IMG/VR virus record: IMGVR_UViG_3300030328_002708
Coordinates: 1 to 40,158 of that record
Length of the DNA stretch: 40,158 bases
Reading direction: 5' to 3' (one strand)
DNA from: a virus
The notes under the pieces were generated by a model, which worked only from the letters and a program-made list of their open reading frames with translations, ran no database searches and had not been told where the DNA came from. Position numbers and translations under genes: made by a program. Positions within the stretch are counted from its first letter, which is position 1; each line of letters begins with the position of its first letter. Positions 1-36,616 of this stretch are shown here, one piece after another.

Positions 1-149
1 CTTAGCGAATTAACATCTAATTGAATAGTATCACCTGTGTGAGTAACCGCTAGTACTTTAATCGTATTTGATGGTGCCTGCGTGTATGTTCCACAACTAG
101 CAAAGGCCACAATAGCCACCACATAAAGGGCAATTTTCCATATTTTCAT
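1..149 (-). CDS. Lipoprotein, partial (C-terminus beyond left edge)
   Basis: The reading frame starts at ATG 149-147 and stays open to the left edge, giving 49 codons. The N-terminus is Met-Lys-Ile-Trp-Lys, then a hydrophobic stretch (residues 6-17) and a lipobox-like F-A-S-C with Cys at residue 20, which is a type II (lipoprotein) signal peptide. The mature part begins Gly-Thr-Tyr-Thr-Gln. It would be lipidated and anchored in the host envelope. Phage lipoproteins are known in superinfection exclusion and lysis (spanin-type), but the visible part does not show which applies. It is the last visible member of a cassette that also encodes a secreted protein and a predicted outer-membrane barrel. 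Its start is joined to the previous stop by a tetranucleotide repeat. The codons look less A/T-rich than those of neighbouring genes. Confidence 0.72.
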   Translation of the reverse strand, partial: MKIWKIALYVVAIVAFASCGTYTQAPSNTIKVLAVTHTGDTIQLDVNSL

Positions 150-173
150 TTATTTATTTATTTATTTATTTAT
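150..173 (-). repeat. Tetranucleotide (AAAT)n spacer
   Basis: The whole spacer between the stop of the 180-aa gene (176-174) and the lipoprotein ATG (149) is a tetranucleotide microsatellite, read on the minus strand as about seven units of TAAA. The stop and start codons themselves fall in the repeat register. It is an A-rich, SD-less leader of the kind used by Bacteroidota, and its length could change by slippage. Confidence 0.8.
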
Positions 174-716
174 TTAAGCATCACACTCTACCCATCTCCA
201 ACCTACTAACTCTACTAAATCTCCATCTTTGTTATAAACTTTTCCTTTAAAGTCTCTGCTGGAAAGTATAGATCCTAGTTTAGTATTTCCTTCTTTAGGA
301 TTTATAAATGATTCCCATATTCTTTGAGCCGAACACATAGCTTCATTTAATTGCTCTACAGTTTTAATATCACCAAAATCTTCTCCTCCATTAATACTAT
401 CAAGAGCGTCTTGATAATTTCCTAAGTTTATCAACTCTGGTGTAGCATCCAATTCTTCTGCTTCTGGTTTTGCCCATAAAAATTCAATTCCTTCATAAGC
501 TTGTTGATCACCTATTATAAAATTTAAATTTGAACAGTATTCAGCTGCCGCTCTATCTATACTTGTAGTGGTATTTGGCGCTGAAATAGCACTTAAATTA
601 AACAAATACTCTCCAGAACCATTACTACCTTTAGTGTCAAATTTTACAAAAACGGTTTTATCTCCAACTGGCCCATATATAGGCTCTATTATTAATTTTA
701 AAAATTTTGTTGTCAT
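174..716 (-). CDS. Hypothetical protein, 180 aa
   Basis: I do not recognise this family. The protein is acidic, with no signal peptide or membrane segment. The N-terminal 40 residues look beta-rich (F-L-K-L-I-I-E-P, then T-V-F-V-K-F-D). A mixed helical middle and a C-terminal Trp-rich end (V-G-W-R-W-V-E-C) follow. It lies between the 169-aa hypothetical (18-base gap) and the lipoprotein. The N-terminal beta-strand followed by a helix with A-A-A-E-Y recalls the layout of the MRQFI paralogs at 34.2-34.9 kb, but this is only a weak visual resemblance. A minor virion or decoration protein is possible. Confidence 0.7.
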   Translation of the reverse strand: MTTKFLKLIIEPIYGPVGDKTVFVKFDTKGSNGSGEYLFNLSAISAPNTTTSIDRAAAEYCSNLNFIIGDQQAYEGIEFLWAKPEAEELDATPELINLGNYQDALDSINGGEDFGDIKTVEQLNEAMCSAQRIWESFINPKEGNTKLGSILSSRDFKGKVYNKDGDLVELVGWRWVECDA

Positions 717-734
717 AATTATTATTTTTTTATA

Positions 735-1244
735 TTAACATCTTTCGATGGCTAGTCTTTCTGAGTTTTCTATCCATAAATTAGCAACTGGATTAACACC
801 AACGCCTGGATTAGATAATACTGCTTCATTTAGGTTTCTATACACTTCGTATGCTGGTGTAACTCTATTATCTATATCTTCTTCACTAGAACCATTATAA
901 TCCCATAAAGGAGAAGTATTAGATGTCATTGGATTCCCACCCTCACCAATACTATCTTTAAGGTTTAATTTTAAACCTTCTCTTGCACCTAAGTTTTGGG
1001 TAGCTCCACTGTAAAATTGAGACTTAGTCCAAATAACTGGTGTCAATACGTTAACAAATATATCCGCAGGATCTTCTCCTGGAGGAAAATCAAAACCTTC
1101 CATTGATGAAACTTCAGGAACATAACTTGTTACTAATATATCATCTATATTTAAATATAAAGAAGGTGTGTTTAAAGACACGGTATCTTGTGCGTCACCA
1201 CTCCTTTTCATTCTAGGGGTAACCCTAACTTTTATTTTATCCAT
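735..1244 (-). CDS. Hypothetical protein, 169 aa
   Basis: The family is not recognised. The protein starts M-D-K-I-K-V-R-V-T-P-R, has no signal peptide, and is rich in Asn, Pro, Gly and Asp, suggesting a beta or loop-rich soluble protein; it ends with a single Cys. It sits 43 bases after the basic 114-aa protein and 18 bases before the 180-aa gene, inside the same transcription unit. The A/T-rich leader just before the ATG supports this start. Its position after the ejection proteins and before a lipoprotein suggests a late gene, but nothing in the sequence gives a function. Confidence 0.68.
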   Translation of the reverse strand: MDKIKVRVTPRMKRSGDAQDTVSLNTPSLYLNIDDILVTSYVPEVSSMEGFDFPPGEDPADIFVNVLTPVIWTKSQFYSGATQNLGAREGLKLNLKDSIGEGGNPMTSNTSPLWDYNGSSEEDIDNRVTPAYEVYRNLNEAVLSNPGVGVNPVANLWIENSERLAIERC

Positions 1245-1287
1245 TTTTATTATTTATTGATTAATTTATTTTTTTGTTTAATTTTAT

Positions 1288-1632
1288 CTACTTTTTAGGC
1301 CATTTAAGTTGTTTTTTAGCTCCACTATAAAAATCAACAACTTTTTTTACTCCTTTTTTTATCGCGTTAACTACTGGTTTACCAGCAGATGATGGCATCA
1401 TAGCAATTTCCGGGTTAACAGTTTTCTTTTTTGGCTTTGTAAAAGGATCTACTTTTAAAGGACTTTTTGCCATAAATGGACTTGTAAATCCACCTTTATC
1501 GGATAAACGCTTTATTCTTGCTTCATGAGTTGCAATATCCATATCGGTACCTTTTTTTCCTTTTCTAACTTTTTCTTTAAATCTACTGTCAATTCTATCG
1601 ACTCTAGCTTGTAGTCTTTCTTTTTTTCCCAT
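1288..1632 (-). CDS. Small basic protein with SPF/SPLK motifs, 114 aa
   Basis: This Lys/Arg-rich protein has no signal peptide. The N-terminal 45 residues look like a charged helix. Residues 51-53 are S-P-F and residues 57-60 are S-P-L-K, spaced as in the N-terminus of the 214-aa protein at 35972-36616. The C-terminal part (residues 86-114) is again very basic. The start codon lies one base after the stop of the outer-membrane barrel gene, so translation is probably coupled. The shared motif links this gene to the small-protein cluster 33 kb away, which suggests a common partner in the virion or assembly pathway. Function unknown. Confidence 0.75.
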   Translation of the reverse strand: MGKKERLQARVDRIDSRFKEKVRKGKKGTDMDIATHEARIKRLSDKGGFTSPFMAKSPLKVDPFTKPKKKTVNPEIAMMPSSAGKPVVNAIKKGVKKVVDFYSGAKKQLKWPKK

Positions 1633-1633
1633 T

Positions 1634-2809
1634 TTACTTTAATGTTATGTTCAGACCAACTGAACTGTTATATATTCTACTATCCCAGAATTTAGTGTAT
1701 TCACCTTCAAAGAATACTCCGATGCTTTTACTAAGTTTCCATCCAAATTGTACTCCAGTTTGATAGTCTTCCCATTGTTCTTTTTCCGCATCTTCAACCA
1801 ATCCACCTAATCCCCAGTTATTTCTATTATGATAACTAAAAGCTTCATCACCTTTTACATAGTTATGATACGGTAATAAGTAAGAACCATAAGCATGGAG
1901 CCAGAAATTATTTTTAAAATGGTAATAGTCAAAACCGACTACAGGAGATACTACTCCAAAAGCATCTATTGTATCCCATATCTCGTTATTATAACGATTC
2001 ATAAGATCAGTAAACACTGTCTGTCTAAACTGTAAATCTGTATAAGCAACAGTTTCACCTTCAGGATTTATCCAATACCAATCAGATACTGTTTCACCTG
2101 AATAACTATCTTCATATGTATAATAAATATCATCATAACCATAGTAAAATCCTAGAGTATACCATGGATTAACAGCTTGTCCTTGTGAATTAGTTTCATT
2201 CAACCATATCTCTACTGGATTATATCCATAAGGACGTTCGTGTGTACGATATATAGCTCCAGCAGATAAACTAAACTTTTTTCCAATAGGTAATTTAGCT
2301 CTTAACTCTGCGGACTTATAATCAAAATTTACTTTTCCTTGTTTTCTACTTTCTATCTTAACAATGTGGTATTTTCCACTATGTTTTAAGAAATATCTGT
2401 GATTTTTAAATACATCATCTCTGGATCTTTCTTTTTCAGTATGAAATACATATTCAAATCCATTAACAGCTGAATTAGGAGCCGTCATAGACACGTTAGA
2501 TTCAGTCCCATCATAGTAATTTTTACCCTTTAATTCATAATCAAATCTTGCTATCTTACGAATACCAAATCCATAGCGATAATCATGATCATAATAATCA
2601 GTTCCATCTACTACAACAGGCACATCGTATAAACTTCCGTTAGGATTTGTTCTTACAAAATAACTTGGTGCATTTTCTTTTGAGTTCTTAAGATCTCCAG
2701 ATACATAAAGAGTACTGTATTTAAAAAAATCTTTAAATAACTTTTTCTTTTCTTGTCCGCTTATATTAAATGTAATAAGTAAACAAAGAGTAAGTAAAAT
2801 TTGTTTCAT
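1634..2809 (-). CDS. Predicted outer-membrane beta-barrel protein, 391 aa
   Basis: The N-terminus is a Sec signal peptide (M-K-Q-I-L-L-T-L-C-L-L) that appears to be cleaved before Gln (I-S-G | Q-E-K), matching the Bacteroidetes Q-rule for signal peptidase I. The mature protein is rich in Tyr, Trp and Phe with alternating polar and hydrophobic residues. It ends in two amphipathic strands (I-G-V-F-F-E-G-E-Y-T-K-F and S-S-V-G-L-N-I-T-L-K), the pattern of an outer-membrane barrel. The start ATG follows directly on the stop of the 74-aa gene (TAAATG). A phage-encoded outer-membrane protein could block receptors, alter permeability or take part in lysis; these roles are inference. A secreted soluble beta protein is the main alternative. 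Confidence 0.75.
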   Translation of the reverse strand: MKQILLTLCLLITFNISGQEKKKLFKDFFKYSTLYVSGDLKNSKENAPSYFVRTNPNGSLYDVPVVVDGTDYYDHDYRYGFGIRKIARFDYELKGKNYYDGTESNVSMTAPNSAVNGFEYVFHTEKERSRDDVFKNHRYFLKHSGKYHIVKIESRKQGKVNFDYKSAELRAKLPIGKKFSLSAGAIYRTHERPYGYNPVEIWLNETNSQGQAVNPWYTLGFYYGYDDIYYTYEDSYSGETVSDWYWINPEGETVAYTDLQFRQTVFTDLMNRYNNEIWDTIDAFGVVSPVVGFDYYHFKNNFWLHAYGSYLLPYHNYVKGDEAFSYHNRNNWGLGGLVEDAEKEQWEDYQTGVQFGWKLSKSIGVFFEGEYTKFWDSRIYNSSVGLNITLK

Positions 2810-3034
2810 TTAGTTTTTCTTTTTACGGGTTTTTCTTTTCTTTTGTAAAGCATCCCACTCTTTTTTCAAATATGTTCTTACTACAACAACATTTTTACAT
2901 TTGTTTATTTTAGTAACTTTAACTCTATAAGATTCTACATATTCTATTTTAGTGACCATGCATTTGTTCTTTCTCTCCTGCGCGTTAGCAGTTAAAGAAA
3001 AAGATAATAATAAGATTATAATTAAATTTTTCAT
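2810..3034 (-). CDS. Secreted small basic protein, 74 aa
   Basis: The signal peptide is clear: M-K-N-L then a hydrophobic core L-I-I-I-L-L-L-S-F and the site T-A-N-A | Q-E-R, again with Gln at +1 as in Bacteroidota. The mature protein is about 55 residues, has two Cys residues that could form a disulfide, and finishes with a Lys/Arg-rich tail (K-K-R-K-T-R-K-K-K). It should act in the periplasm or at the outer membrane. Its ATG directly follows the stop of the 29-aa gene and its stop directly precedes the ATG of the barrel gene, so the three are translationally coupled. No family recognised. Confidence 0.78.
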   Translation of the reverse strand: MKNLIIILLLSFSLTANAQERKNKCMVTKIEYVESYRVKVTKINKCKNVVVVRTYLKKEWDALQKKRKTRKKKN

Positions 3035-3124
3035 TTATTTGTATTTTTTAAACATTAATTTATATAGCAATTTGTTCCAAGCTTGCTGTAACTTGTCAAT
3101 AAATTTTTTTATTTTTTCTTTCAT
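3035..3124 (-). CDS. Cationic amphipathic 29-aa peptide (mini-gene)
   Basis: ATG at 3124-3122 overlaps the TGA stop of the 3278-aa gene in an ATGA, and its TAA stop (3037-3035) is directly followed by the next ATG (3034), so the mini-gene exactly fills an otherwise empty 86-base gap. The peptide has ten Lys against one Glu and one Asp. Hydrophobic residues at I5, F8, I9, L12, W16, L19, L20, L23 and M24 fall on one face of a helix. This is the profile of a membrane-active peptide, comparable in principle to phage-encoded cationic lysis peptides (disruptins), although much shorter than the described one. It could instead be a leader that couples translation to the 74-aa gene. Confidence 0.6.
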   Translation of the reverse strand: MKEKIKKFIDKLQQAWNKLLYKLMFKKYK

Positions 3125-6100
3125 TTTTTATGTTTTACGTAGTATTGTATTGTACCATCTATTCTTTCTACTTGCATATAGTCTACACCTAATTCACCTT
3201 TTGGTATATAATGATTTGGTCCAGATAAAGGTATTTTTTTAGTAAATCCTTTTGCTTTAACATTTTTAACAGCTTTAGCATAATCTATTTTTAATTGCTC
3301 ATCTTCTTTTGCCTCTCTATCTATTGTACTTTGCCTTCCCCAATAAGGTAGACCTAAAATATAAGGAGACCAACCTAAACTTAAAGCTATTTTTTGCCAC
3401 ATTCTAACTTCATTATCCATAATATTAGATCCCGCATTCATCATGTTCATTAAATTATCCACAGGTACATTAAAGAAAGAAGATATTATTTGTGAAACCG
3501 CTAAATAAGCAGGGTTGTCTAAACTCCAACCTCTTCTTTTTATTTCTTTCATATTCCAACTAAAACTTCTAGCAGCTTGTCTAAGTTTTCTAACTTTACT
3601 ATCTATAACTGGAGACACATCAAATAAATCCCAAAGTGGATGTTCATAATCTGGAGATTTAGTTTGTGATTCATCAAATATTTTCATTGCAACATTTTTT
3701 ACTGTAGATACTATAGCTCCACCAAATCCAAGACCAAATAATAAAGAGTCTACCATTGAATTTGCTGTATCAAATGTTTTGTTTTTTTCTTTTTCATCCT
3801 CTTCTTCTTCGCCAAACAGTCCTGCAAATAAAGCTTGTTGTAAAGAGTGGAATATTAAGTTTTGCATACCAACGTAATAAACTACATTTGATAAATTACT
3901 CATATCACTTTCACGCTGAGTCATACCTGGTCTTTTACGTCTTTTAACAAAGTCCAATATAGATTTCTTAGTCTTTCTGTTAAATTGCATTGTAACATTT
4001 TGAAAAGAAAGAAAAACACGTCCAGCCATACTCGCCTGTTGTTGTGATATTCTACTTGGATTACTAGACTGCTGTGTTTCTTCGGCTATAGCATAAAAAT
4101 CATCAAAAGCTTTAGTATCTGCTTCTGCTTCTGTGTATTTTTTACCAGTTTCTGGATTAACTCTATTTAATAAAGCTTTTTTACGATTAATAAAAAATGT
4201 AGCACCACCAGTTGCGATTGCTAAACTATCTGCTATTCTAGTAAATATAAATCCTTTATCTAGTAAATAACTAACTAAACCTTGAAAACCATCCCTTCTT
4301 CCTCTATCTACTAACTCTGCTTCATTTACATTTATCTTTAAACCATCACGTCTATTTACAAGATATGGTGAATTCATTAACCTCATAAAAGTAGGATAAA
4401 AATCTTTACTTGCAAAAGCTTTAGAAGCTGCATATAGATTATTATCACCCCAATTTATGAAATTTACCGTAGATAACATTTGAAGTAAACCTGATTTACG
4501 ATTCAAAAACATTGTAACACCAACAGATGCGTTAAGCCAATCAAGCATGTCATTAACTATACGTGATCCAGGTCCATCATATTGTGGTCTATTACTACCT
4601 GTTTTCATTCTACGTAAAGAATCAATTAAAGCTTCTCTATATTTGCTACCAAATAAAGCTTCTAATTTATTTAGATTTTCAGGAGAAAATATTATATCTG
4701 CGTTTTCACTAAACTCAGTCATAAGCTTTTTTCTAAAACCTTTATCTAAACCATTTAATATATCAGATTTTATATCTCCAGCTAACCAACTTTTTCCAGG
4801 TGCTGGATAAAATTTTCCTTTTTGTATTTGTATAACTTCATCTGCAAATACTTGTAGCTCCATGTCTGATTCTATTGCTTTGACTAAAGCGTTTATATCT
4901 CTTTTAGACATACCCGGTATATCCATACCTTGCTTATTCCACATGTAAACTCTTATTGCTTGAGACTTAGTAAAAGGTCCAATCCCTATTCCTGCGTGTA
5001 ATGGGTTTTGTAAAACCCCAAGTTTATTTCTTTTAGTTTTTAAACTTGGAAACTGTTTCCTAAGTTCAGCAAAATCATCAGCAACTGTTATTTTAGCAGA
5101 CATTAATTCTAGCTCTGCTTTATTATAAGGTTTTATAAGATTATCTTCAATCCATTGAGTATGCCTGTTACCTTGTTCGCCTTCTCCTCTAAAAGCATAT
5201 GTTAAACCTATAAAGTCATCAGCTGATGGAGTAATTGTAAATTGATTTGCTACTCTTTTAGTTAAACCACCATCTTTTTTAGCTCCTACTAATCTAGCTC
5301 TAACATCAGAATATCTTTTAAATTTATCAATACCAGTTACTTCTTCTAGTATTTCATTAAGTTCTTTATCTAATTTCAAACTATTTTGTACTCTAGCTTG
5401 ATGAACTTTATTTTTAACATCAACAGCGTCTAACACTGCTTTAACTCCAGCAACATTAGCAAATGAATCATCAGCAAAATAAAAATCATTATAACCTTCA
5501 GCGGTTTTATTTAACACCCAATCAACTTTAGCTTGAGGTGTTCCATCTTCTAAACCAGTTATATTTTGTAAAGGTATATTAATACCAATTGCATCTAAAA
5601 ACTGTTTAATAGACTCAGCTGCTACTTGAGGACGAGCTGTTAATACAAATATATCTTTGCTTCCAAATTTGCCTTGTCTTTTTCTAGCTAAATCAGCTAA
5701 TGGTCCTTCCGCTGTATCTAAAGAAACATTTTCAAAATTCTTAAAATCAAATTCAGCTCCTTGTTCTTTAAGTTTTGCAGCGTCTTTAGCAAATTGAGAT
5801 GCAGAAATCTCTTTAATACTTCCATCTTGATTTATTACTATAACTTTTTCTTTAGTTTTAGCAAGTGTGTCATCAAAATCAAATACACTAATACCTTTTT
5901 CTTTAGGCACACGTACTGATTCCATAGCTTTAACTTTAGTTTCAAAAGAGTTTTCTAATATATCTTTTATTTGTTGAATAGTTAACCCAGGTTTTAATAT
6001 TTCACTAGCATATCCAGTAATTTTTTCACCTGCAACATCTTTCTTTACCGCAAGTGGAGTTGTTAAGTCTAAGAATTTTCTAACATCTGCTTTACTCCAT

Positions 6101-9100
6101 TCACCTCTTAAGTATTTCATTGTGGCGAAAGCTTGATATTTTTCTACATTTGGAAACTTAGCTATACCATAACGATCAACCGACATTAATTCTTTTGCTG
6201 TATATTTTTTACCATTAACAAATACATCTCCTATAATTTCAGATCCAGCAATCTTAGCTACAGTTTCTAATTTTCCTGTTTTAGGATTATAAACACGAAC
6301 ATTATTTGGATTTCTATAAAAATATTCATTAAAATATCTAGTTAAAACACTAACTTTATTTAAATCTTTTGCACTAATCTTTCCATTTATATAATCTTTT
6401 AGTGTATCTATTAAAAATGGTTCTCCTTCAGACTTCGCATTCCAAGCTTCTTTGCTTTCTGTAGGATCAAATACTCCTTTAGTTCCTTCTGGAAAATTGG
6501 ATTCTTGATTTTTTATACCAGGTATATCAGCTAAAGCAACTTGAAATATCCTGTTAGATAACCAATCACGAACTACATCAAAATTAGGTACGTCAAGGTT
6601 GTTAGGGTCAAGTCTAGGAAGATTAAGTGCTACACCTATAACTTTGGTATAAAGGCCAAACTGAAAAGCATGCTCATTTGTAATTGGTAACGGTTTACCA
6701 TCTGGACCTATTGGAAAAATTCCCATGTCTCCAAGAAGCGCTCCAATTTGTCTACCAATATTATTATTATACATAGAATCCGCGTGGAACATTCTTAAAA
6801 ACGGAACCTGTAAATGTTTAGGTAAATCATAAGCAGCATCTAATACATCTCTAATTCCTTGTTTTATTTCATCTATATTAGCTATATTATCTTGTACACT
6901 TTTTTTAGCAACTTTTGAATTTATACTTTTTCTATTAGGCTTTATAGCTATCTCAATATTTTTATTAGCTGTTTTTTTATTATCAGGAATTGATTTTCTT
7001 AAATCTGATACTAAACCAACTTCACCTTTTTCAATAGCTTTTTTAGTTGCTTTATATTGCTTTATATTATCTTCTAATTTTTCTCTAGAATATACTGTTT
7101 TACCATCTCCTAGCTGTATAGTTACAGCACCTGGAGTATTATCTAGTATCAGCTGCGCATCATATATCTTTTCATCTAAAGCTTCTATACTTTCTACAAA
7201 ATGTAATCCCGTATTTTTTTGTTGACCTAGTAATCTAGATAATTTAAGACCCGCTGATGTTAAGTTTCCTGACTTAAATAAACCCCCACGAGAAAATCCT
7301 TTTTCTGCTAATACTTTAAAAAGTTCTTTGTATATTTCGATTTTTTGATCTGTAGGTAAATTATCAAAATTATTATTATCTATTAATGATGCGATACTTT
7401 TAATACCTTCAATATTACCTTCATCAATAATTTCATTTACCTTTTTAGCTGGGATCTTCTCAGAAAACTTAACACCTTGTTGTTGTCTTTTTCCTTGTAA
7501 AGGTTGAGCTGTTTCTATTATTCTGTTTCTAATATGTAAACCTAATAATCCTCTAATAGTTTGACCTACACGATCTCTATATATAGGTTTAACAGGTTTC
7601 TTTCTAACAAGATCCATGTAATCTTTTAAATTACCTGTTAATTTATCGTTAGTATATAAAGCATCTTTTACATTTTTAGGAATAAAAGTTCCTTTACCAA
7701 AATCATCTTTAGTTCTTGGTAATCTAGCAAAATCATTAGTAGCGTTTTTAAGTAGATATTGTTTAGCTTTAGTTAAACCTTCTGCATCAGTTTTTTGAAA
7801 ATTTCTTTTTTTATTAACTATTGTTTCAGGATTAATACCAAATTCAGCAGCATAAATATCTGCTACTTCTTGAGGTATATTTCTTGTATCTGAAAACTTA
7901 ATATCCTTATCTTTATAAGCATCTTTTATAGCTTTTGTAATTTTATTTTCAGTAGTTTTATCTAAAGTAGTTGTTTCACTAGGTTTTTTAGCTAGCTTAT
8001 CATCTTTAACCTCTGTTTCTTTAGTAGTATCAGCTACTTCTTTAGCTTCTTTACTATCAATACGTTTTTCTTGTTTTTGTCTTTCGCTTTTTTCTGCTAA
8101 AGCTTTATTTGCTACCATTTTAGCAAATCTAGTATTAGCAAATATTGCTTCACCAAAACCTTTAGGACCAACAGGAGTTCCATCAGCTCTCTTCGCCTCA
8201 GGATTGAAGTTGAATATACGCTCGTACATCTCATCAATCATTTTACCTCCTTGTTCTCTACTAGTTTCCTTAGATCTTATGTAATTGTTTATAACTCCTC
8301 CAGGTAATAATGCATCAGCAATAGCTTTAGCTGATTTGTTATCCCTTATAAATGCATCAAACTGGTCTTTAGTTTTTACACTCTCTGGTATTAAATTATT
8401 TATAGCTTCAAGCGGAGTTTCTTTTATTTTTTGAGAATACTTAACTGATGGTTTCTGTTTTGCGCCTTTTTGTTTTCCTGTGTAAATATCAATTCCAGAA
8501 TCTATAACAGCTGTTGGAAAATTTTTAAATTTTTCTTGTATTGCAAGTTTTATATCTTCTACTGCTTCAGGATTAACATTTTTAGCTGACTTCGCCTTTT
8601 TATACATTGCTCTTATCTCATCAACCCCGTAGTTTGTATCTAATGCTTTTACTCTATTTTTCCTCTCCTCAATTTTCCTATATATTTTAGTACGACGATT
8701 ATGTTCTTCAGGTTGAGAAGCAACATCTTGCCAAAACCATGAATATACTGATTGCGCGCCACTATCTCTAACAATCTTTGCTAATTGTTTATCAAGCGCA
8801 ACTATTCCATCTAAAGGACCAGGTCCATCTTGAAATGCCAATGCTGTCTCAGAATCTCTATCATAATGAGATTTGTGAAAATCCATGAAGTTTTTCTCAG
8901 ATTTCTTTCTAGTTTCCGCTGGTGTCTCTCCGTCCTCAGTCTCTCCTTGTTTAAATTGGTTACCAACTCCCATGTAAGGAGTTAAAGATACTTCTGGTTT
9001 TTCTGATTTCCTAACTTTCATTTTCAACATATCTTGAGTTGTATCTCCCCCAAGTCGTTTTAAAGCTGCTCTTGCTTCGGCTTTACCTACAAATTTTCTA

Positions 9101-12100
9101 TCTAATCCTAAAGATCCATCAGATTGTCTAACTAATTCCCAAGGTGAATATCCTTCTTCAGCATCTCTTTGAGCAGGTGTCATTTTATCTAAGTCTGCTT
9201 GTCTAGCTTTACTAGTTTTGGTGGAAGTATCTACGGCTTTTGAATCTTTAGTTGGTTGTGTATTATCTTGCGTATTATCAATTTTGATACCTTGTCCTTC
9301 TGTTATTCCTGCTGTATCTAATGTACCTTGTGATAAACCTTTACCACTCTCTACATCTTTGTTAAAGCTCTCTAAAAAATCTATAGCTTGCTTACCATCT
9401 TTAAAACTTTGCTTCCAACCTATACCTTCTAAAAATTTATTTAAAATATTTAAAAGTGGTCCAGTTTCTTTAATTTTTATACCTTTTGTGGAGTCAAGTT
9501 TATTTGCAGTTAACGCATCACTTGTTACTGCCATAACTTCTTCGTAAAATGTCTCTTTATCTATTACTCCATCGTTATATTGTTTTCTATAAGCATCTAG
9601 TGTTCTTTTAGTCCTATCATCTATTTCAACACGACCAGTTTTACCACTATCATTTACAAGAGTATTATATAAATCCTCTCCCCATTTAGACATTTTATCA
9701 GGATCTATTTTAGTAGCAAACGCATGTAGTACCTCGTGTTTATCAGCAGGTAGCACGCCATCAGCTTCACTAGAGGCATTGTTTATAATTACTTGTTTAG
9801 TACCATCTGGAAAAGTAGCTATTGTTCCATAGCTTTGCTGTTCAGCGGGTAAAATATTTCCGTCAGCATCTTCTGCTAACCTAATATCTACTCCTTGAGC
9901 TTTTAATGTTTCCATACCGCTTAGGTAATCTTGAGTATTATCAAATCTTGCAATCCCAGTATCACCTAATTGTTCAGCAACTACATCTGATCCTTCTTGT
10001 AATTGTCTTGCTGTTGGAGCTACTAATTCTCCATTATCTACTACTTTAGCATCATCATCTTTTGATACATAAGGTTCTAGTATTTTATTTTTTTGACCAG
10101 TTAATTCGTTTTTCTTATTATTTAAATCTTCAAGTAACTGTTCTTTACCGACTTTAATTCCTTTATCATTTGTTACAGCTTCAATTTGTTTATTTACCTT
10201 AAATGTATCTTGTTCGTTTTTACCTAATTGATCTATAGTTTCTCTAGGCATATTATTATACCTATTGTTAGCTGTTGTTATAGTATTATTTATTTTTAAA
10301 GTTTCACTAGCAATATCATCATTTAATAATTTTTTAGTCTCTAGTGACATTTCAGGATTTTCTAGAATAGTATTTATTTTATTTTTGATAAGATTTTGAC
10401 TATTCTTGATATTAATCTGATCACCTGGTGTTTGAACTGCGCCAGTAAAAACATTAAATAAAGCTGGTGTTTTAAAACCATTAGCCATCATCAGTCCTGA
10501 AAAGAAATTATCTTTCCACCCATCAAATACATTTACATCTTTACCTAGTATTGTTCTATCATATAAATTACCAGCTGCTTCTGCGAATACTTCTTCCCCA
10601 CCTTCCTTTATTAAATCACCTGCATATCCATATGTTGACGCTAAAAACTTTTTTCCAAATTCTCTAGTAAAACCAACCTTTACACCAAATCCTTTAAAAG
10701 CTTTAGCTCTATTTAACATTGGTAAATCAATATATCTACCACCAATATATTCAGCTCCCATGCTAACCATTGCGCCTCCCCACATTTGAGCTAAGTTGTA
10801 ATCTATTGCCGCGGGTCTAGATTTTTCCCACTCACCTAATCTAAACTTAAAAGCTTCATCAGTTTCGTTTTCACGCTTAACAGGTTTATTCTTTTCATGC
10901 AGTTCACGCTCTTTAGCGTTTTGTTTCATTTCATTTTCATACTGAAGAAATCTTGAACCACCAGCTTGAGCAGTAACTATTCCAACACCGTATCCACCAG
11001 TGGCAACAATAACTCCCATTTGAGGAGCAATAGCACCTGCTGTAGCAAATATATATCTACCCCAATCACTAGCGTCTTTCAATTCGTCCATAGTCATTGA
11101 CTCTGCAACACCATTCATCAATCCTACCTGATATTTATCTAGAGCAGCATGCGCTTCTTCTCTACTATCAGACCATGCTTCTAATGCATATTTACCACCA
11201 AACTGCCAAAACGGGTTAAAAGCTGAATACGTTTCACCTATTTTACTCCCTACATTAGATTTTGTATTTTTTTTCTTATCTTCTGGAGAAAGTTTATCCC
11301 AAGCTCCATCACCATGCGTTTTATCATAAGCTTTTTTAGATAGATTTTTATCTATTTCAAGACCAATATCATTAGGTAAATTAGCAATTTTAAATGCTAA
11401 TGTTTCTATACCTTGACCCATGTCGATAGCAGAATTTTCTGCATTGTGTATCATAATAGGTATAACACTATAATTTCTTTCAAGATCATTTATAGCAGCA
11501 CTAGCATCTTTGCTATCTTCTAAAGTCTTATCTAACTCGTCATATTTTGATTTTATTAAATCAAAAATTTGATTTTTTTGATTATTTATTTGTTGTAAAG
11601 CTTTATTAGCTTTTACTATTTGATTAGGGGTTTGATATTCTTGATTAGCAATAGCTTCAGCAGAAGCAGACAACATCTCTAATGTATTCGCGCTTTTATC
11701 AATAAAACTTCCTATACCTTTTTGTTGAGTTGTTAATTTAGAAAGTTGATCTTTCTTATAAAGCCCCATCATCTGCTGCTTTTCACTTCTACTCCAAACA
11801 TCTTTAGCGTCTAAGTGTTGACCAACAGGACCACCACCAATCCACATTGCTAATTTTTTCCATGTAAAACCAGATGGTTCATTCTCTATAAAATCCTCTA
11901 ATTTATCTAACTCTAATTCATCTTTTAATGCTATAGCTTTAGTAGAAATCATTTTATTTTTAATTCTCTCTTGCATTTCAGGAGAATCTAAATCTAATTG
12001 TTCAGGAGATTTACCTTCTTGATTTGCTATTTCTGCTATAGCCGCGTCTCTAGCTTCAACCCAATCAGGATTAGGTATTTTGTTACCAGTTTTAACAGTT

Positions 12101-12957
12101 CTAGTTCTAACATTACCTGTTTTTGAATATGGATCTATATATTGCTCTTGTTTAGTTTCGTCTATTTCTTGATCATTCCACCAATCAACAGCTTGACCAG
12201 ATACAGGAACATTATCTTCATATAAAACAATGCCTTCATTTTCTTCAGGTGTTAATTTAATTTGTTCCTCAAAAATAGTAGCAACTTCTGCAAATTTAGG
12301 ATCTACTACACTAGCATCATCAGTTATGGTTTTTGATTCTAAAACAAGTTCATTAGTTAATGACTGAGATTTTTTACTAGCATTAGAAATAACTTGATTT
12401 TGACTCATCATCAATCCTCCGTCGATTGTTGTGTGACCAAATACACCACTTACAGCATAGTAAGCATCTTGTTGGTCACCACCTGCTTCTGGATCAAGTG
12501 TCTCCCAAGTATCTACACCCTTTTTTCGTCTTCTGTAAATAGGTTTCCCAACTTCATCAAATTCATATTGAAATTCCCACCCATTAGCTTCATGTGTTTC
12601 GTTAGGTTTTGCAACTACAGTTAAAGCATCCCAAGTTTCTTTTTCTTCTTCTCTTTTTGTTTCTTCTGGTTCTAAGCTAGCATTTAATTCACCTAAACTC
12701 ATACCAGTTTGTTGAGTAGTACTAGATAAATTTACTGGTTCATTAGAAAGTATTTTAGAAGATGATCTAATAGAATAAGGATCATCTTTAACCTCATCAT
12801 TTGTTTCATCTTTTGTATCAACTTCAATAGTTTCTTCTTCCACTTCTGGTTGAGAATTATTCTTTTTCCACTCTTCAACTTTAGCTATTATTTCATCCTG
12901 TTCTAACTTAGGATTTTTTTGTTGTTGTAGTGAAATAGTATATTCTTGTAGATTCAT
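3121..12957 (-). CDS. Giant multidomain virion/ejection protein, 3278 aa
   Basis: This is the largest protein in the window. It follows the 221- and 367-aa proteins in the position that T7-type phages use for the large ejection protein (gp16-like). Visible parts in order are: an acidic low-complexity N-terminus; a Gly/Ala-rich hydrophobic stretch near 635-665; coiled-coil-like segments around 830-940; an HExxH zinc-protease motif (H1074, E1075, H1078) in K-H-E-V-L-H-A-F; a Lys/Glu-rich linker around 1640; a HAD-type domain with D2360-x-D2362-x-T2364, then L-T-A-R-P (T2440) and F-A-D-D-S (D2496, D2497); and a C-terminal 500 residues with several hydrophobic segments. It looks like a 'polyvalent protein', a type known from phages and conjugative elements whose domains enter the host with the DNA. 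Individual activities are unproven. Confidence 0.8.
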   Translation of the reverse strand: MNLQEYTISLQQQKNPKLEQDEIIAKVEEWKKNNSQPEVEEETIEVDTKDETNDEVKDDPYSIRSSSKILSNEPVNLSSTTQQTGMSLGELNASLEPEETKREEEKETWDALTVVAKPNETHEANGWEFQYEFDEVGKPIYRRRKKGVDTWETLDPEAGGDQQDAYYAVSGVFGHTTIDGGLMMSQNQVISNASKKSQSLTNELVLESKTITDDASVVDPKFAEVATIFEEQIKLTPEENEGIVLYEDNVPVSGQAVDWWNDQEIDETKQEQYIDPYSKTGNVRTRTVKTGNKIPNPDWVEARDAAIAEIANQEGKSPEQLDLDSPEMQERIKNKMISTKAIALKDELELDKLEDFIENEPSGFTWKKLAMWIGGGPVGQHLDAKDVWSRSEKQQMMGLYKKDQLSKLTTQQKGIGSFIDKSANTLEMLSASAEAIANQEYQTPNQIVKANKALQQINNQKNQIFDLIKSKYDELDKTLEDSKDASAAINDLERNYSVIPIMIHNAENSAIDMGQGIETLAFKIANLPNDIGLEIDKNLSKKAYDKTHGDGAWDKLSPEDKKKNTKSNVGSKIGETYSAFNPFWQFGGKYALEAWSDSREEAHAALDKYQVGLMNGVAESMTMDELKDASDWGRYIFATAGAIAPQMGVIVATGGYGVGIVTAQAGGSRFLQYENEMKQNAKERELHEKNKPVKRENETDEAFKFRLGEWEKSRPAAIDYNLAQMWGGAMVSMGAEYIGGRYIDLPMLNRAKAFKGFGVKVGFTREFGKKFLASTYGYAGDLIKEGGEEVFAEAAGNLYDRTILGKDVNVFDGWKDNFFSGLMMANGFKTPALFNVFTGAVQTPGDQINIKNSQNLIKNKINTILENPEMSLETKKLLNDDIASETLKINNTITTANNRYNNMPRETIDQLGKNEQDTFKVNKQIEAVTNDKGIKVGKEQLLEDLNNKKNELTGQKNKILEPYVSKDDDAKVVDNGELVAPTARQLQEGSDVVAEQLGDTGIARFDNTQDYLSGMETLKAQGVDIRLAEDADGNILPAEQQSYGTIATFPDGTKQVIINNASSEADGVLPADKHEVLHAFATKIDPDKMSKWGEDLYNTLVNDSGKTGRVEIDDRTKRTLDAYRKQYNDGVIDKETFYEEVMAVTSDALTANKLDSTKGIKIKETGPLLNILNKFLEGIGWKQSFKDGKQAIDFLESFNKDVESGKGLSQGTLDTAGITEGQGIKIDNTQDNTQPTKDSKAVDTSTKTSKARQADLDKMTPAQRDAEEGYSPWELVRQSDGSLGLDRKFVGKAEARAALKRLGGDTTQDMLKMKVRKSEKPEVSLTPYMGVGNQFKQGETEDGETPAETRKKSEKNFMDFHKSHYDRDSETALAFQDGPGPLDGIVALDKQLAKIVRDSGAQSVYSWFWQDVASQPEEHNRRTKIYRKIEERKNRVKALDTNYGVDEIRAMYKKAKSAKNVNPEAVEDIKLAIQEKFKNFPTAVIDSGIDIYTGKQKGAKQKPSVKYSQKIKETPLEAINNLIPESVKTKDQFDAFIRDNKSAKAIADALLPGGVINNYIRSKETSREQGGKMIDEMYERIFNFNPEAKRADGTPVGPKGFGEAIFANTRFAKMVANKALAEKSERQKQEKRIDSKEAKEVADTTKETEVKDDKLAKKPSETTTLDKTTENKITKAIKDAYKDKDIKFSDTRNIPQEVADIYAAEFGINPETIVNKKRNFQKTDAEGLTKAKQYLLKNATNDFARLPRTKDDFGKGTFIPKNVKDALYTNDKLTGNLKDYMDLVRKKPVKPIYRDRVGQTIRGLLGLHIRNRIIETAQPLQGKRQQQGVKFSEKIPAKKVNEIIDEGNIEGIKSIASLIDNNNFDNLPTDQKIEIYKELFKVLAEKGFSRGGLFKSGNLTSAGLKLSRLLGQQKNTGLHFVESIEALDEKIYDAQLILDNTPGAVTIQLGDGKTVYSREKLEDNIKQYKATKKAIEKGEVGLVSDLRKSIPDNKKTANKNIEIAIKPNRKSINSKVAKKSVQDNIANIDEIKQGIRDVLDAAYDLPKHLQVPFLRMFHADSMYNNNIGRQIGALLGDMGIFPIGPDGKPLPITNEHAFQFGLYTKVIGVALNLPRLDPNNLDVPNFDVVRDWLSNRIFQVALADIPGIKNQESNFPEGTKGVFDPTESKEAWNAKSEGEPFLIDTLKDYINGKISAKDLNKVSVLTRYFNEYFYRNPNNVRVYNPKTGKLETVAKIAGSEIIGDVFVNGKKYTAKELMSVDRYGIAKFPNVEKYQAFATMKYLRGEWSKADVRKFLDLTTPLAVKKDVAGEKITGYASEILKPGLTIQQIKDILENSFETKVKAMESVRVPKEKGISVFDFDDTLAKTKEKVIVINQDGSIKEISASQFAKDAAKLKEQGAEFDFKNFENVSLDTAEGPLADLARKRQGKFGSKDIFVLTARPQVAAESIKQFLDAIGINIPLQNITGLEDGTPQAKVDWVLNKTAEGYNDFYFADDSFANVAGVKAVLDAVDVKNKVHQARVQNSLKLDKELNEILEEVTGIDKFKRYSDVRARLVGAKKDGGLTKRVANQFTITPSADDFIGLTYAFRGEGEQGNRHTQWIEDNLIKPYNKAELELMSAKITVADDFAELRKQFPSLKTKRNKLGVLQNPLHAGIGIGPFTKSQAIRVYMWNKQGMDIPGMSKRDINALVKAIESDMELQVFADEVIQIQKGKFYPAPGKSWLAGDIKSDILNGLDKGFRKKLMTEFSENADIIFSPENLNKLEALFGSKYREALIDSLRRMKTGSNRPQYDGPGSRIVNDMLDWLNASVGVTMFLNRKSGLLQMLSTVNFINWGDNNLYAASKAFASKDFYPTFMRLMNSPYLVNRRDGLKINVNEAELVDRGRRDGFQGLVSYLLDKGFIFTRIADSLAIATGGATFFINRKKALLNRVNPETGKKYTEAEADTKAFDDFYAIAEETQQSSNPSRISQQQASMAGRVFLSFQNVTMQFNRKTKKSILDFVKRRKRPGMTQRESDMSNLSNVVYYVGMQNLIFHSLQQALFAGLFGEEEEDEKEKNKTFDTANSMVDSLLFGLGFGGAIVSTVKNVAMKIFDESQTKSPDYEHPLWDLFDVSPVIDSKVRKLRQAARSFSWNMKEIKRRGWSLDNPAYLAVSQIISSFFNVPVDNLMNMMNAGSNIMDNEVRMWQKIALSLGWSPYILGLPYWGRQSTIDREAKEDEQLKIDYAKAVKNVKAKGFTKKIPLSGPNHYIPKGELGVDYMQVERIDGTIQYYVKHKK

Positions 12958-33334: not shown

Positions 33335-33793
33335 TTATTTTTGTTTAAATATATTACTTGCTTTTTCTGTTGTTCGTCCACCGAAATAGGCTAAGACGAC
33401 CGACATCATTATTTTCTCGAAAGTATCATTCCATAATTCATTTATATGAAATGGTAGTGTTTCTATACTATCTAAAATTCCAGCCATTGAAAATATAACT
33501 ATACACCACACTAATACTAATGGGCGTACATTCTTACTCAACCAAGAATCAGACATAGAATCCGCTTTCCATCTTGATGTGATAGCTTCTATTTCTTTTG
33601 TTTGTTGTTCGTAAATTAATTGTTGGAGTTTTATTTTGTCTTCAGCGGGTGCATCTGATTTAGCAATAGCCGCTATAGCTTCTTTTGGAGAAGTAACACC
33701 TTGTAATACGTTTCCTAAAGTAGGATTAATTACAGAAGCTGCGCCAAACAATAATTGTCCAACGGTTGTGTCTTTAAATTTCTTTTTACTCAT
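33335..33793 (-). CDS. Holin, 3TM superfamily (GTA-holin type), 152 aa
   Basis: The protein should form the inner-membrane hole that triggers lysis. Characteristic of the 3TM holin family is the middle motif E-I-T-S-R-W-K-A-D-S with R-P (in N-V-R-P-L-V-L) and the C-terminal G-G-R-T-T-E-K. Two membrane segments are clear (V-L-V-W-C-I-V-I-F-S-M-A-G-I and I-M-M-S-V-V-L-A-Y-F-G-G), and a weaker one occurs near residue 15 (L-L-F-G-A-A-S-V). I chose the Met at 33793 because it overlaps the previous stop as TAATG; the frame also allows an earlier Met at 33823, which would overlap the previous gene by 31 bases. The neighbours are a putative metalloprotease and a beta protein; no endolysin lies next to it. 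Confidence 0.8.
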   Translation of the reverse strand: MSKKKFKDTTVGQLLFGAASVINPTLGNVLQGVTSPKEAIAAIAKSDAPAEDKIKLQQLIYEQQTKEIEAITSRWKADSMSDSWLSKNVRPLVLVWCIVIFSMAGILDSIETLPFHINELWNDTFEKIMMSVVLAYFGGRTTEKASNIFKQK

Positions 33794-34101
33794 TATGCGT
33801 TTAAATAAGCTTCTTGTTCCCAAGGTAAAGCAGAATCACCTTCTTTCATTTTAGATCTAGGATATGTTTTTCCTTTCCAATACACGTTTTCATCATCATA
33901 GTTTAAATCACCTCTATTCATTTGATCTATATGCACTTCTTCATGAGCAATTACTTTTGCTTCATCTTGAGGATTTAAATCCTTGTTTACAATGATAGTT
34001 CCATTATTATTAGCTTTACCCATAACACCATCTTCCATATTTACATGATAAACTGGAGCTTTATTTTTTTGAAAAGGAGGAGGTCCCATTTTAAAAGCCA
34101 T
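33793..34101 (-). CDS. Small putative zinc metalloprotease (HEEVH), 102 aa
   Basis: Residues 50-59 (V-I-A-H-E-E-V-H-I-D) carry the HExxH signature, with H53 and H57 as likely zinc ligands and E54 catalytic. A third ligand may be E95 or E97 in the C-terminal P-W-E-Q-E-A-Y. This short arrangement resembles the compact peptidase-like proteins I know from other phages. The N-terminus has P-P-P-F-Q-K-N-K, which is like the SPFQK-type motif of the neighbouring small proteins. It shares a TAATG with the holin gene. Possible roles are cleavage of capsid or scaffold proteins or a part in lysis; the substrate is unknown. Confidence 0.72.
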   Translation of the reverse strand: MAFKMGPPPFQKNKAPVYHVNMEDGVMGKANNNGTIIVNKDLNPQDEAKVIAHEEVHIDQMNRGDLNYDDENVYWKGKTYPRSKMKEGDSALPWEQEAYLNA

Positions 34102-34936: not shown

Positions 34937-35212
34937 TTATTTTCTTTTATGAGCTCGATTATTTTTTAGATGTCCATCTAAATTTTCTTGAGAATAATCA
35001 GCCATTTCTTCATGAGTAAGTCCACCTGCGTTGTTATGAGCTGGTGAACCATGATGTTTTACAGATCCAAGTTTAGATTGACTAGCATGTTTAGACATCC
35101 ATGATCTTCCTCCACTAGCATCTTTTGCTACTGGATTGTCATGCATTAAATCGTACTTTTCTTGTTTTGTGGATTCGTAACCCTTGTTTTGATTTTTTAA
35201 AGGTGAATTCAT
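34937..35212 (-). CDS. SP-motif protein, short paralog, 91 aa
   Basis: This is a polar, His/Lys/Ser-rich, probably disordered protein. It starts M-N-S-P-L-K and contains K-Q-E-K-Y-D-L-M-H-D-N-P-V-A-K, S-W-M-S-K-H and H-H-G-S-P-A-H (residues 53-59). The middle two segments are shared almost letter by letter with the 107-aa protein upstream, so the genes are tandem paralogs. The H-H-G-S-P-A-H piece is also present in the 128-aa protein. No signal peptide. The recurring motif suggests a shared binding partner, perhaps the capsid, scaffold or GroEL. Function unknown. Confidence 0.74.
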   Translation of the reverse strand: MNSPLKNQNKGYESTKQEKYDLMHDNPVAKDASGGRSWMSKHASQSKLGSVKHHGSPAHNNAGGLTHEEMADYSQENLDGHLKNNRAHKRK

Positions 35213-35971: not shown

Positions 35972-36616
35972 TTATGTAAGTCCTAATGACTCTTTTTTAT
36001 TTGCTTTTTGAACAGCTGTAGCATTAGCTCCTTCACCTGTTAACCAAGCGTCATATGTTTCTTGGTTTTTCTTTTTACTTTCAACAGCTTCATTTGCAGT
36101 TGTTAAATTACTTTTAACATTTTCACTTCTATCGTCAAATCTTTTTAATCTATCAGCGCTCCAATTATCTTTGTTATTTTCTCTTCTTTTTGATCTTCTC
36201 TTATCTCTTTTTGCTAAATGTTTAGCTCTAGCTTCTGGAGTACTTCTTTTATCTATAATAGATTGAGCAAGTTTACCAAATGAATCAAAAACCCTTGTCC
36301 ACATATGCGCTGTAGGTGGATTAGAATCTACCATATCACTCGCTTCTCTATAACCATGCAGAGGAGAACTCATTTCTGCTGCAGAATTTCTAGCAGCATC
36401 TTCGTCTTCTCTTACTTGATAAGCTCCTTCTTCTGTTCTAGCATTACTGTGAGCTGCTTCAGCTTTAGTTTTAGCTTCATAAAGATCAGCATGTTCTTCA
36501 TAAAAATCTCCTGGACCGTCCCAATTTCTTTTTGCTCTATTTATTTGTCTTTGGATTTTTCTATGACCTTTTAATGGACTTTTGCTATTAAAACTTTTTT
36601 GAAATGGTGAACTCAT
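35972..36616 (-). CDS. Basic helical SP-motif protein, 214 aa
   Basis: This protein begins M-S-S-P-F-Q-K and has S-P-L-K at residues 13-16, then S-P-L-H at 84-87, so it carries three copies of the motif. It is strongly basic between 120 and 165 (K-R-D-K-R-R-S-K-R-R) and helical, which would suit binding to DNA or to an acidic scaffold. The tandem arrangement SPF followed by SPLK about 9 residues later is the same as in the 114-aa protein at 1288-1632. It is separated by two bases from the 82-aa gene. Function unknown. Confidence 0.73.
   Translation of the reverse strand: MSSPFQKSFNSKSPLKGHRKIQRQINRAKRNWDGPGDFYEEHADLYEAKTKAEAAHSNARTEEGAYQVREDEDAARNSAAEMSSPLHGYREASDMVDSNPPTAHMWTRVFDSFGKLAQSIIDKRSTPEARAKHLAKRDKRRSKRRENNKDNWSADRLKRFDDRSENVKSNLTTANEAVESKKKNQETYDAWLTGEGANATAVQKANKKESLGLT

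Follow-up and report, generated by a model that had tools for sequence, protein, structure and literature searches.

A predicted outer-membrane barrel of marine phages that is linked to a thioredoxin-fold protein, a membrane coiled-coil protein and endolysin genes

Here we describe a gene close to the start of the virus record IMGVR_UViG_3300030328_002708, the whole of which (40,158 bases; hereafter, the window) was analyzed. We conclude with good confidence that its 391-amino-acid (aa) product is an exported outer-membrane (OM) barrel belonging to a linked triple of proteins; the two partners are TM95, a coiled-coil protein of ~95 aa with a single transmembrane (TM) segment, and TRX, a secreted protein with a thioredoxin fold. 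We favor, tentatively, a role for this triple in the step by which released virions get past the outer membrane, and remodeling of the host surface is the close, main rival to this reading. Little is known about how the outer membrane is opened by phages that infect Bacteroidota. The barrel/TRX/TM95 triple, always linked in the window's lineage and seen elsewhere with an unrelated endolysin, is a concrete candidate for this step.

The 391-aa protein begins with a hydrophobic signal peptide (residues 1–19, MKQILLTLCLLITFNISG followed by Q), in agreement with the original prediction, which had been made from the letters of the window alone and had proposed a signal peptide of the Q-rule type. 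Signal peptides were called by eye and by conservation throughout. Q occupies position +1 in the window and in most relatives; the leader is variable across relatives (mean entropy 1.72 bits), and the mature part is conserved at 56–96% identity. Two AlphaFold2 runs on different alignments returned the same 12 long barrel strands (pLDDT 70 and 75, pTM 0.67 and 0.70). The strand count is uncertain: residues 40–116 were modeled with low confidence, and the structural matches cover barrels of 12–16 strands. Long extracellular loops are predicted at about residues 191–283 and 312–347. The top structural matches of both models were exclusively OM barrels. For the first model (Foldseek/VIA), these were Tsx (Z = 14.9), KdgM (14.4), NanC (13.6), LpxR (11.9) and OMPLA (11.2), with autotransporter barrels also among the matches; for the second model, they were CymA (12.5), OmpG (11.3) and BamA. 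The summed face difference for in/out residue alternation in the strands was 6.25, versus 4.68 in shuffled sequences, a difference that is at most suggestive (p = 0.07). Overall, the predicted fold resembles a barrel and the searches turned up no virion homologue, so the earlier call of an OM barrel is supported.

No meaningful match to the barrel was found in Pfam, PHROGs, NCBIfam, PDB sequences or INPHARED. Its median dN/dS (ratio of nonsynonymous to synonymous substitution rates) is 0.084 (139 pairs), and the barrel is under strong purifying selection; this value, together with several hundred relatives, argues that the gene is more than a product of chance. An enzymatic identity, considered because LpxR and OMPLA were among the structural matches, was set aside: there was no Pfam match, and inspection by eye revealed no H-x-S motif. 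A 342-aa viral protein in BFVD (A0A516LKJ4) matched the barrel by Foldseek (E = 1.8e-23, 26% identity) and, on the strength of this comparison of models, is probably a member of the family.

A scan of IMG/VR located relatives of the barrel at 529 loci. A second branch, searched for with a remote homologue from genomes of one bacterial order, comprised at least 541 confirmed IMG/VR loci on contigs of up to 245 kb (hereafter, the large-phage branch). The barrel is therefore found in many hundreds of marine virus sequences, and it is both widespread and not previously described. Phage-encoded OM proteins had originally been thought uncommon; more than 500 loci of this family in each of two branches, and the many unrelated phage barrels present in BFVD, lend that view no support. 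Matches in genome assemblies (genome_contigs) look like phage contigs within metagenome-assembled genomes (MAGs). The MAGs concerned (L124–L129) are labeled Woesearchaeota, Alphaproteobacteria, Maricaulis and Bacteroidetes, and the phage contigs in them were likely mis-binned. When 296 genomes from a single bacterial order were searched with a profile, the matches were one MAG-type phage contig, one remote homologue, also on a phage-like contig, and a third, marginal one (E = 0.007). For neither branch was a chromosomal host relative found in genome_contigs or in these 296 genomes, and the family appears, as far as searched, to be phage-specific.

We scored the neighbors of the barrel with local profiles on fetched loci, of which 48 had sufficient flank in the window's lineage; the counts are of loci, some of them from closely related phages, and do not represent independent events. 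Both TM95 and TRX (PF00085, E = 1e-7) were present in 48/48 testable loci, and an M15 endolysin (PF08291, E = 8e-17; phrog_894, E = 1e-31) in 45/48. A CXXC motif was found in 0/76 TRX sequences. TM95 of relatives matches phrog_1009, a family of unknown function (E = 3e-4), and inspection suggests that it may be an inner-membrane protein with one TM segment and a coiled coil on the periplasmic side. In sister lineage B, the order is TM95-TRX-barrel-(76 aa)-M15-holin, with stops and starts that often touch or overlap, and the holin that directly follows the barrel and endolysin genes is a relative of the window's own. In the window's nearest relative (L002/L044, barrel 96% identical), the order is 74-aa gene, barrel, lipoprotein, TM95, TRX; TM95 and TRX are therefore expected just past window position 1. 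The original prediction had instead joined the barrel to a 74-aa secreted protein and a lipoprotein as a three-gene envelope cassette. That grouping was mistaken: it is TM95 and TRX that accompany the barrel constantly, and gene order suggests that the true unit is the barrel with these two, lying mostly beyond the window edge. In a relative without the barrel (L313), TM95 is found between the M15 and holin genes (M15-TM95-holin), an arrangement that looks as if TRX and the barrel had been added onto a lysis cassette. In a mirror-tree comparison, co-evolution within the triple was not clearly closer than with the endolysin (barrel, r = 0.33–0.44 with each partner); TRX and TM95 gave r = 0.82 in the whole set and 0.42 in lineage A.

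The triple recurs in the large-phage branch, where 56 loci were testable: TM95 was present in 46, TRX in 48, and the triple is kept in about 46. An unrelated amidase endolysin (PF01510 + PF01471) lies within 5 kb in 13/56 loci and an M15 endolysin in 1/56, and any holin- or endolysin-like gene is found in 44/56. The presence of the triple beside an unrelated amidase implies that the barrel-endolysin linkage outlived an endolysin swap. It is because the endolysin link is near-constant in the window's lineage, and because the triple stands beside a non-homologous endolysin too, that we consider a lysis role the most likely one. The original prediction had offered both a change of the cell surface and OM disruption at lysis, and the linkage to holin and endolysin leans toward the latter.

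In the proposed mechanism, the barrel would be made late, exported through the Sec pathway of the infected cell, and seated in the OM. The CXXC-less TRX would occupy the periplasm and TM95 the inner membrane, with its coiled coil facing the periplasm, such that the triple, perhaps as a physical complex, would span three compartments. This module, encoded with the endolysin, and with the holin in one lineage, in overlapping genes, would weaken or breach the OM when the holin and endolysin come into action, either replacing a spanin or working alongside one.

The triple is like two-component spanins (Rz/Rz1 type; PMC9636201) in pairing a predicted inner-membrane, single-TM coiled-coil protein with an OM partner, the genes for both lying with those of holin and endolysin. 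Unlike spanins, whose OM partner is a lipoprotein, it has a predicted 12-strand barrel in that place, and every testable locus of the window's lineage adds a third component, a thioredoxin-fold protein of the periplasm. Since its OM partner is not a lipoprotein, the triple is at most spanin-like and not a member of the spanins. A Pro-rich lipoprotein candidate resembling an o-spanin occurs in only 8/48 loci, hence most loci are without that candidate OM-lysis gene. At one locus (L057), a Pro/Tyr-rich lipoprotein gene (9143–9574) overlaps the TM95 gene (9543–9830) by 32 nucleotides, which resembles the overlap of o-spanin and i-spanin genes. Phage-encoded OM barrels near lysis genes are also known from the late region of lambda-like phages (Lom; the Lc/NmpC porin of PA-2/DLP12); they function in lysogens and are similar to Ail or OmpC-type porins of the host. 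Compared by family searches, the barrel family is like these proteins in location only; unlike them, it has no host homologue in the searches described above, and it travels with TM95 and TRX.

Several observations weigh against a role in virion release. The end of a late operon is a common site for accessory genes, so linkage alone does not amount to function. Among seven near-complete relatives (55–62 kb, chosen by terminase), six are without the barrel and all six have the M15 gene; the seventh has a barrel split by a frame break. The periplasmic part of TM95 (~57 residues) is short for a spanin. Moreover, a recognized endolysin lies within 5 kb in only 14/56 large-phage loci, and a gene for a cargo protein of the type IX secretion system (T9SS) is a tighter neighbor of the barrel there (69/78 loci), which points to the cell surface. 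Because close relatives without the barrel gene exist, the gene is accessory; its absence from six of the seven relatives rules out the status of a universal core gene. At L318 (record G042), the barrel is split into open reading frames (ORFs) 1514–2308 and 2356–2721, between intact TRX and M15 genes, and the split may reflect either a break in the frame or an error in the assembly. The barrel-less relative L317 encodes, at 2769–3164, a 131-aa secreted, apparently beta-rich protein that ends in YKI and is possibly a different small OM protein.

The T9SS cargo is a secreted protein of 700–1400 aa with a type-A sorting domain (TIGR04183, 53.6 bits against a cut-off of 23), found near the barrel in 69 of the 78 testable large-phage loci, and the two genes mostly touch or overlap. 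TIGR04183 cargo was present in 12/12 large records (one per genome in 11, two in the other) and in 0/17 window-type records. Record G359 (245,646 bases; L399 and L401) carries two copies of barrel plus cargo ~119 kb apart. This regular pairing suggests routine use of the host T9SS by large marine phages, for which one earlier case had been reported: "Cryophage" genes with type-A sorting domains, called a unique occurrence and proposed to serve superinfection exclusion (PMC7468147). The type-A domains are common to both; here the cargo occurs widely and has a barrel of its own as partner. The abutting substrate and barrel genes of the large phages also resemble the substrate-shuttle pairs of the T9SS, made of a type B substrate and a PorP/SprF-like barrel (PMC12618676, PMC9143113). 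Unlike in those pairs, the phage sorting domain is of type A, not type B, and window-type phages are without the cargo. Neither the window barrel nor the large-phage barrels gave a PorP/SprF, FadL-type or PorV profile match in Pfam or NCBIfam. These searches lend no support to PorP/SprF or PorV membership, and by its profiles the barrel is not a recognized T9SS shuttle.

This pairing argues for surface remodeling. Here, a late OM barrel would block superinfection or keep progeny off debris, and in large phages it would anchor or help export the T9SS surface protein, as PorP/SprF do. The earlier proposal for "Cryophage" fits this explanation, as does the frequent linkage of type B T9SS substrates to PorP/SprF shuttle barrels in Flavobacterium (PMC12618676). 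The 74-aa neighbor of the barrel further matches the Cor superinfection-exclusion profile (phrog_1119) weakly (E = 3.3e-4, 5/15 members); other short families score nearly equally, and the match is probably one of composition. Against surface remodeling stand the lack of cargo in window-type records and of a PorP/SprF or PorV match. Receptor-specific exclusion would also predict something other than the observed loops, which are not hypervariable, and the low dN/dS. Moreover, the tight pairing with the endolysin in the window's lineage is left unexplained. We regard surface remodeling as somewhat less likely than a role in release. A more far-reaching form of the release reading, which we think unlikely, combines elements of both: a phage-made OM barrel, coupled to a coiled-coil protein of the inner membrane via a periplasmic thioredoxin fold that is redox-dead, would open the OM of Bacteroidota in a way unlike spanins and disruptins, and in large phages a similar barrel would also serve a phage T9SS protein that the dying cell exposes on its surface.

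Other explanations are less probable still. The triple might act as a trans-envelope sensor that relays a surface signal via the periplasm to the inner membrane and tunes holin timing (lysis inhibition). One protein in each compartment, the TM95 gene adjoining the holin gene in one relative, and the response of T4 periplasmic antiholins to superinfection (PMC9636201) are in keeping with such a sensor; however, neither RI/RIII nor any other antiholin showed homology to the triple and the idea is drawn wholly by analogy, so we judge it improbable. The original prediction had also raised the possibility that the phage acquired these genes from a host. An ordinary bacterial porin, recently acquired as cargo for nutrient uptake or another benefit to the phage, would suit the porin-like fold (Tsx, KdgM, NanC and CymA matches). 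Nevertheless, clear relatives in the 296 genomes and in genome_contigs were only on phage-like contigs, sequence searches of Pfam, NCBIfam and PDB gave no match, and the barrel is conserved jointly with phage partners; with no chromosomal homologue in either search, we set this origin aside as very improbable. Lastly, a tail- or capsid-associated virion protein, which the position directly after the structural operon and its 3278-aa gene might suggest, is the least probable identity, given the signal peptide in the relatives inspected, no counterpart at the barrel position in phi38:1 or elemovirus, and no PHROGs structural or INPHARED match.

All three envelope products that the original prediction had placed within 3 kb do exist, as judged by signal peptides and a lipobox (Table 1), with the lipoprotein cut by the record end. 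The 74-aa protein is an accessory partner of the barrel, found in 14/48 testable loci and located upstream of or adjoining the barrel in the window's lineage. It has the expected Q-rule signal peptide (MKNLIIILLLSFSLTANA followed by Q), and the cysteine pair noted earlier (C25, C46) is invariant in an alignment of 15 family members, as is a tryptophan, and a K/R-rich tail is kept as well. The touching starts and stops were confirmed: the 74-aa and 391-aa genes abut (2810/2809), and the gene after the barrel begins at 1632, with the barrel stop at 1634. The lipoprotein gene is three genes away, and since the 114-, 169- and 180-aa genes intervene, the envelope products do not form a contiguous cassette. 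Its lipobox in the window is MKIWKIALYVVAIVAFASC; relatives show FASC, SSC or LAGC. Full-length relatives are ~145 aa and Pro/Tyr-rich, and the window holds 49 codons of such a gene because the record ends there. No family match was obtained for the 169-aa protein, which among the fetched loci occurs in the window only, and a scan of viral contigs found no relative of the 180-aa gene.

The window is probably a fragment of a larger genome, near-complete relatives being about 60–77 kb. Nearly all of its genes lie on the minus strand, in the series GroEL, holin, GroES, terminase (phrog_6681), portal, other virion proteins, muzzle/tail genes and then the 3278-aa gene. Homology and gene order agree with Elemovirus and Cellulophaga phage phi38:1 (Pervagoviridae), which upholds the phage late operon of the original prediction, and the 3278-aa gene takes the position of the last "structural protein" in elemovirus and phi38:1. 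The carrier viruses probably infect Flavobacteria-like bacteria.

Table 1. Coordinates of the barrel gene, its neighbors and other features discussed in the text
Feature	Position	Strand	Basis and remarks
391-aa phage outer-membrane barrel protein	1634..2809	-	ORF; AlphaFold2 models; OM-barrel matches; IMG/VR relatives; dN/dS
74-aa secreted cationic protein	2810..3034	-	ORF; alignment of 15 relatives
114-aa basic protein, FTSPFMAKSPL motif	1288..1632	-	Accessory; ORF; related ORF in L049; motif scan
169-aa protein	735..1244	-	Accessory; ORF
180-aa protein	174..716	-	Accessory; ORF
Lipoprotein, N-terminal 49 codons	3..149	-	Translation; lipobox FASC
3278-aa protein	3121..12957	-	Last gene of structural operon, directly upstream of barrel region; ORF
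Holin	33335..33823	-	phrog_3427, PHROGs E = 5.8e-18
T9SS cargo, examples	L323 4015-6999; L347 3837-7001; L391 9275-11419		66 other large-phage loci

Small basic proteins around the late/lysis region share a recurrent SPF/KSPL motif, which is perhaps a targeting tag. It occurs in the window at 1288–1632, 34937–35212 and 35972–36616, as well as in L049, L054 and L057, with FTSPFMAKSPL and MSSPFQKSFNSKSPLK as examples.

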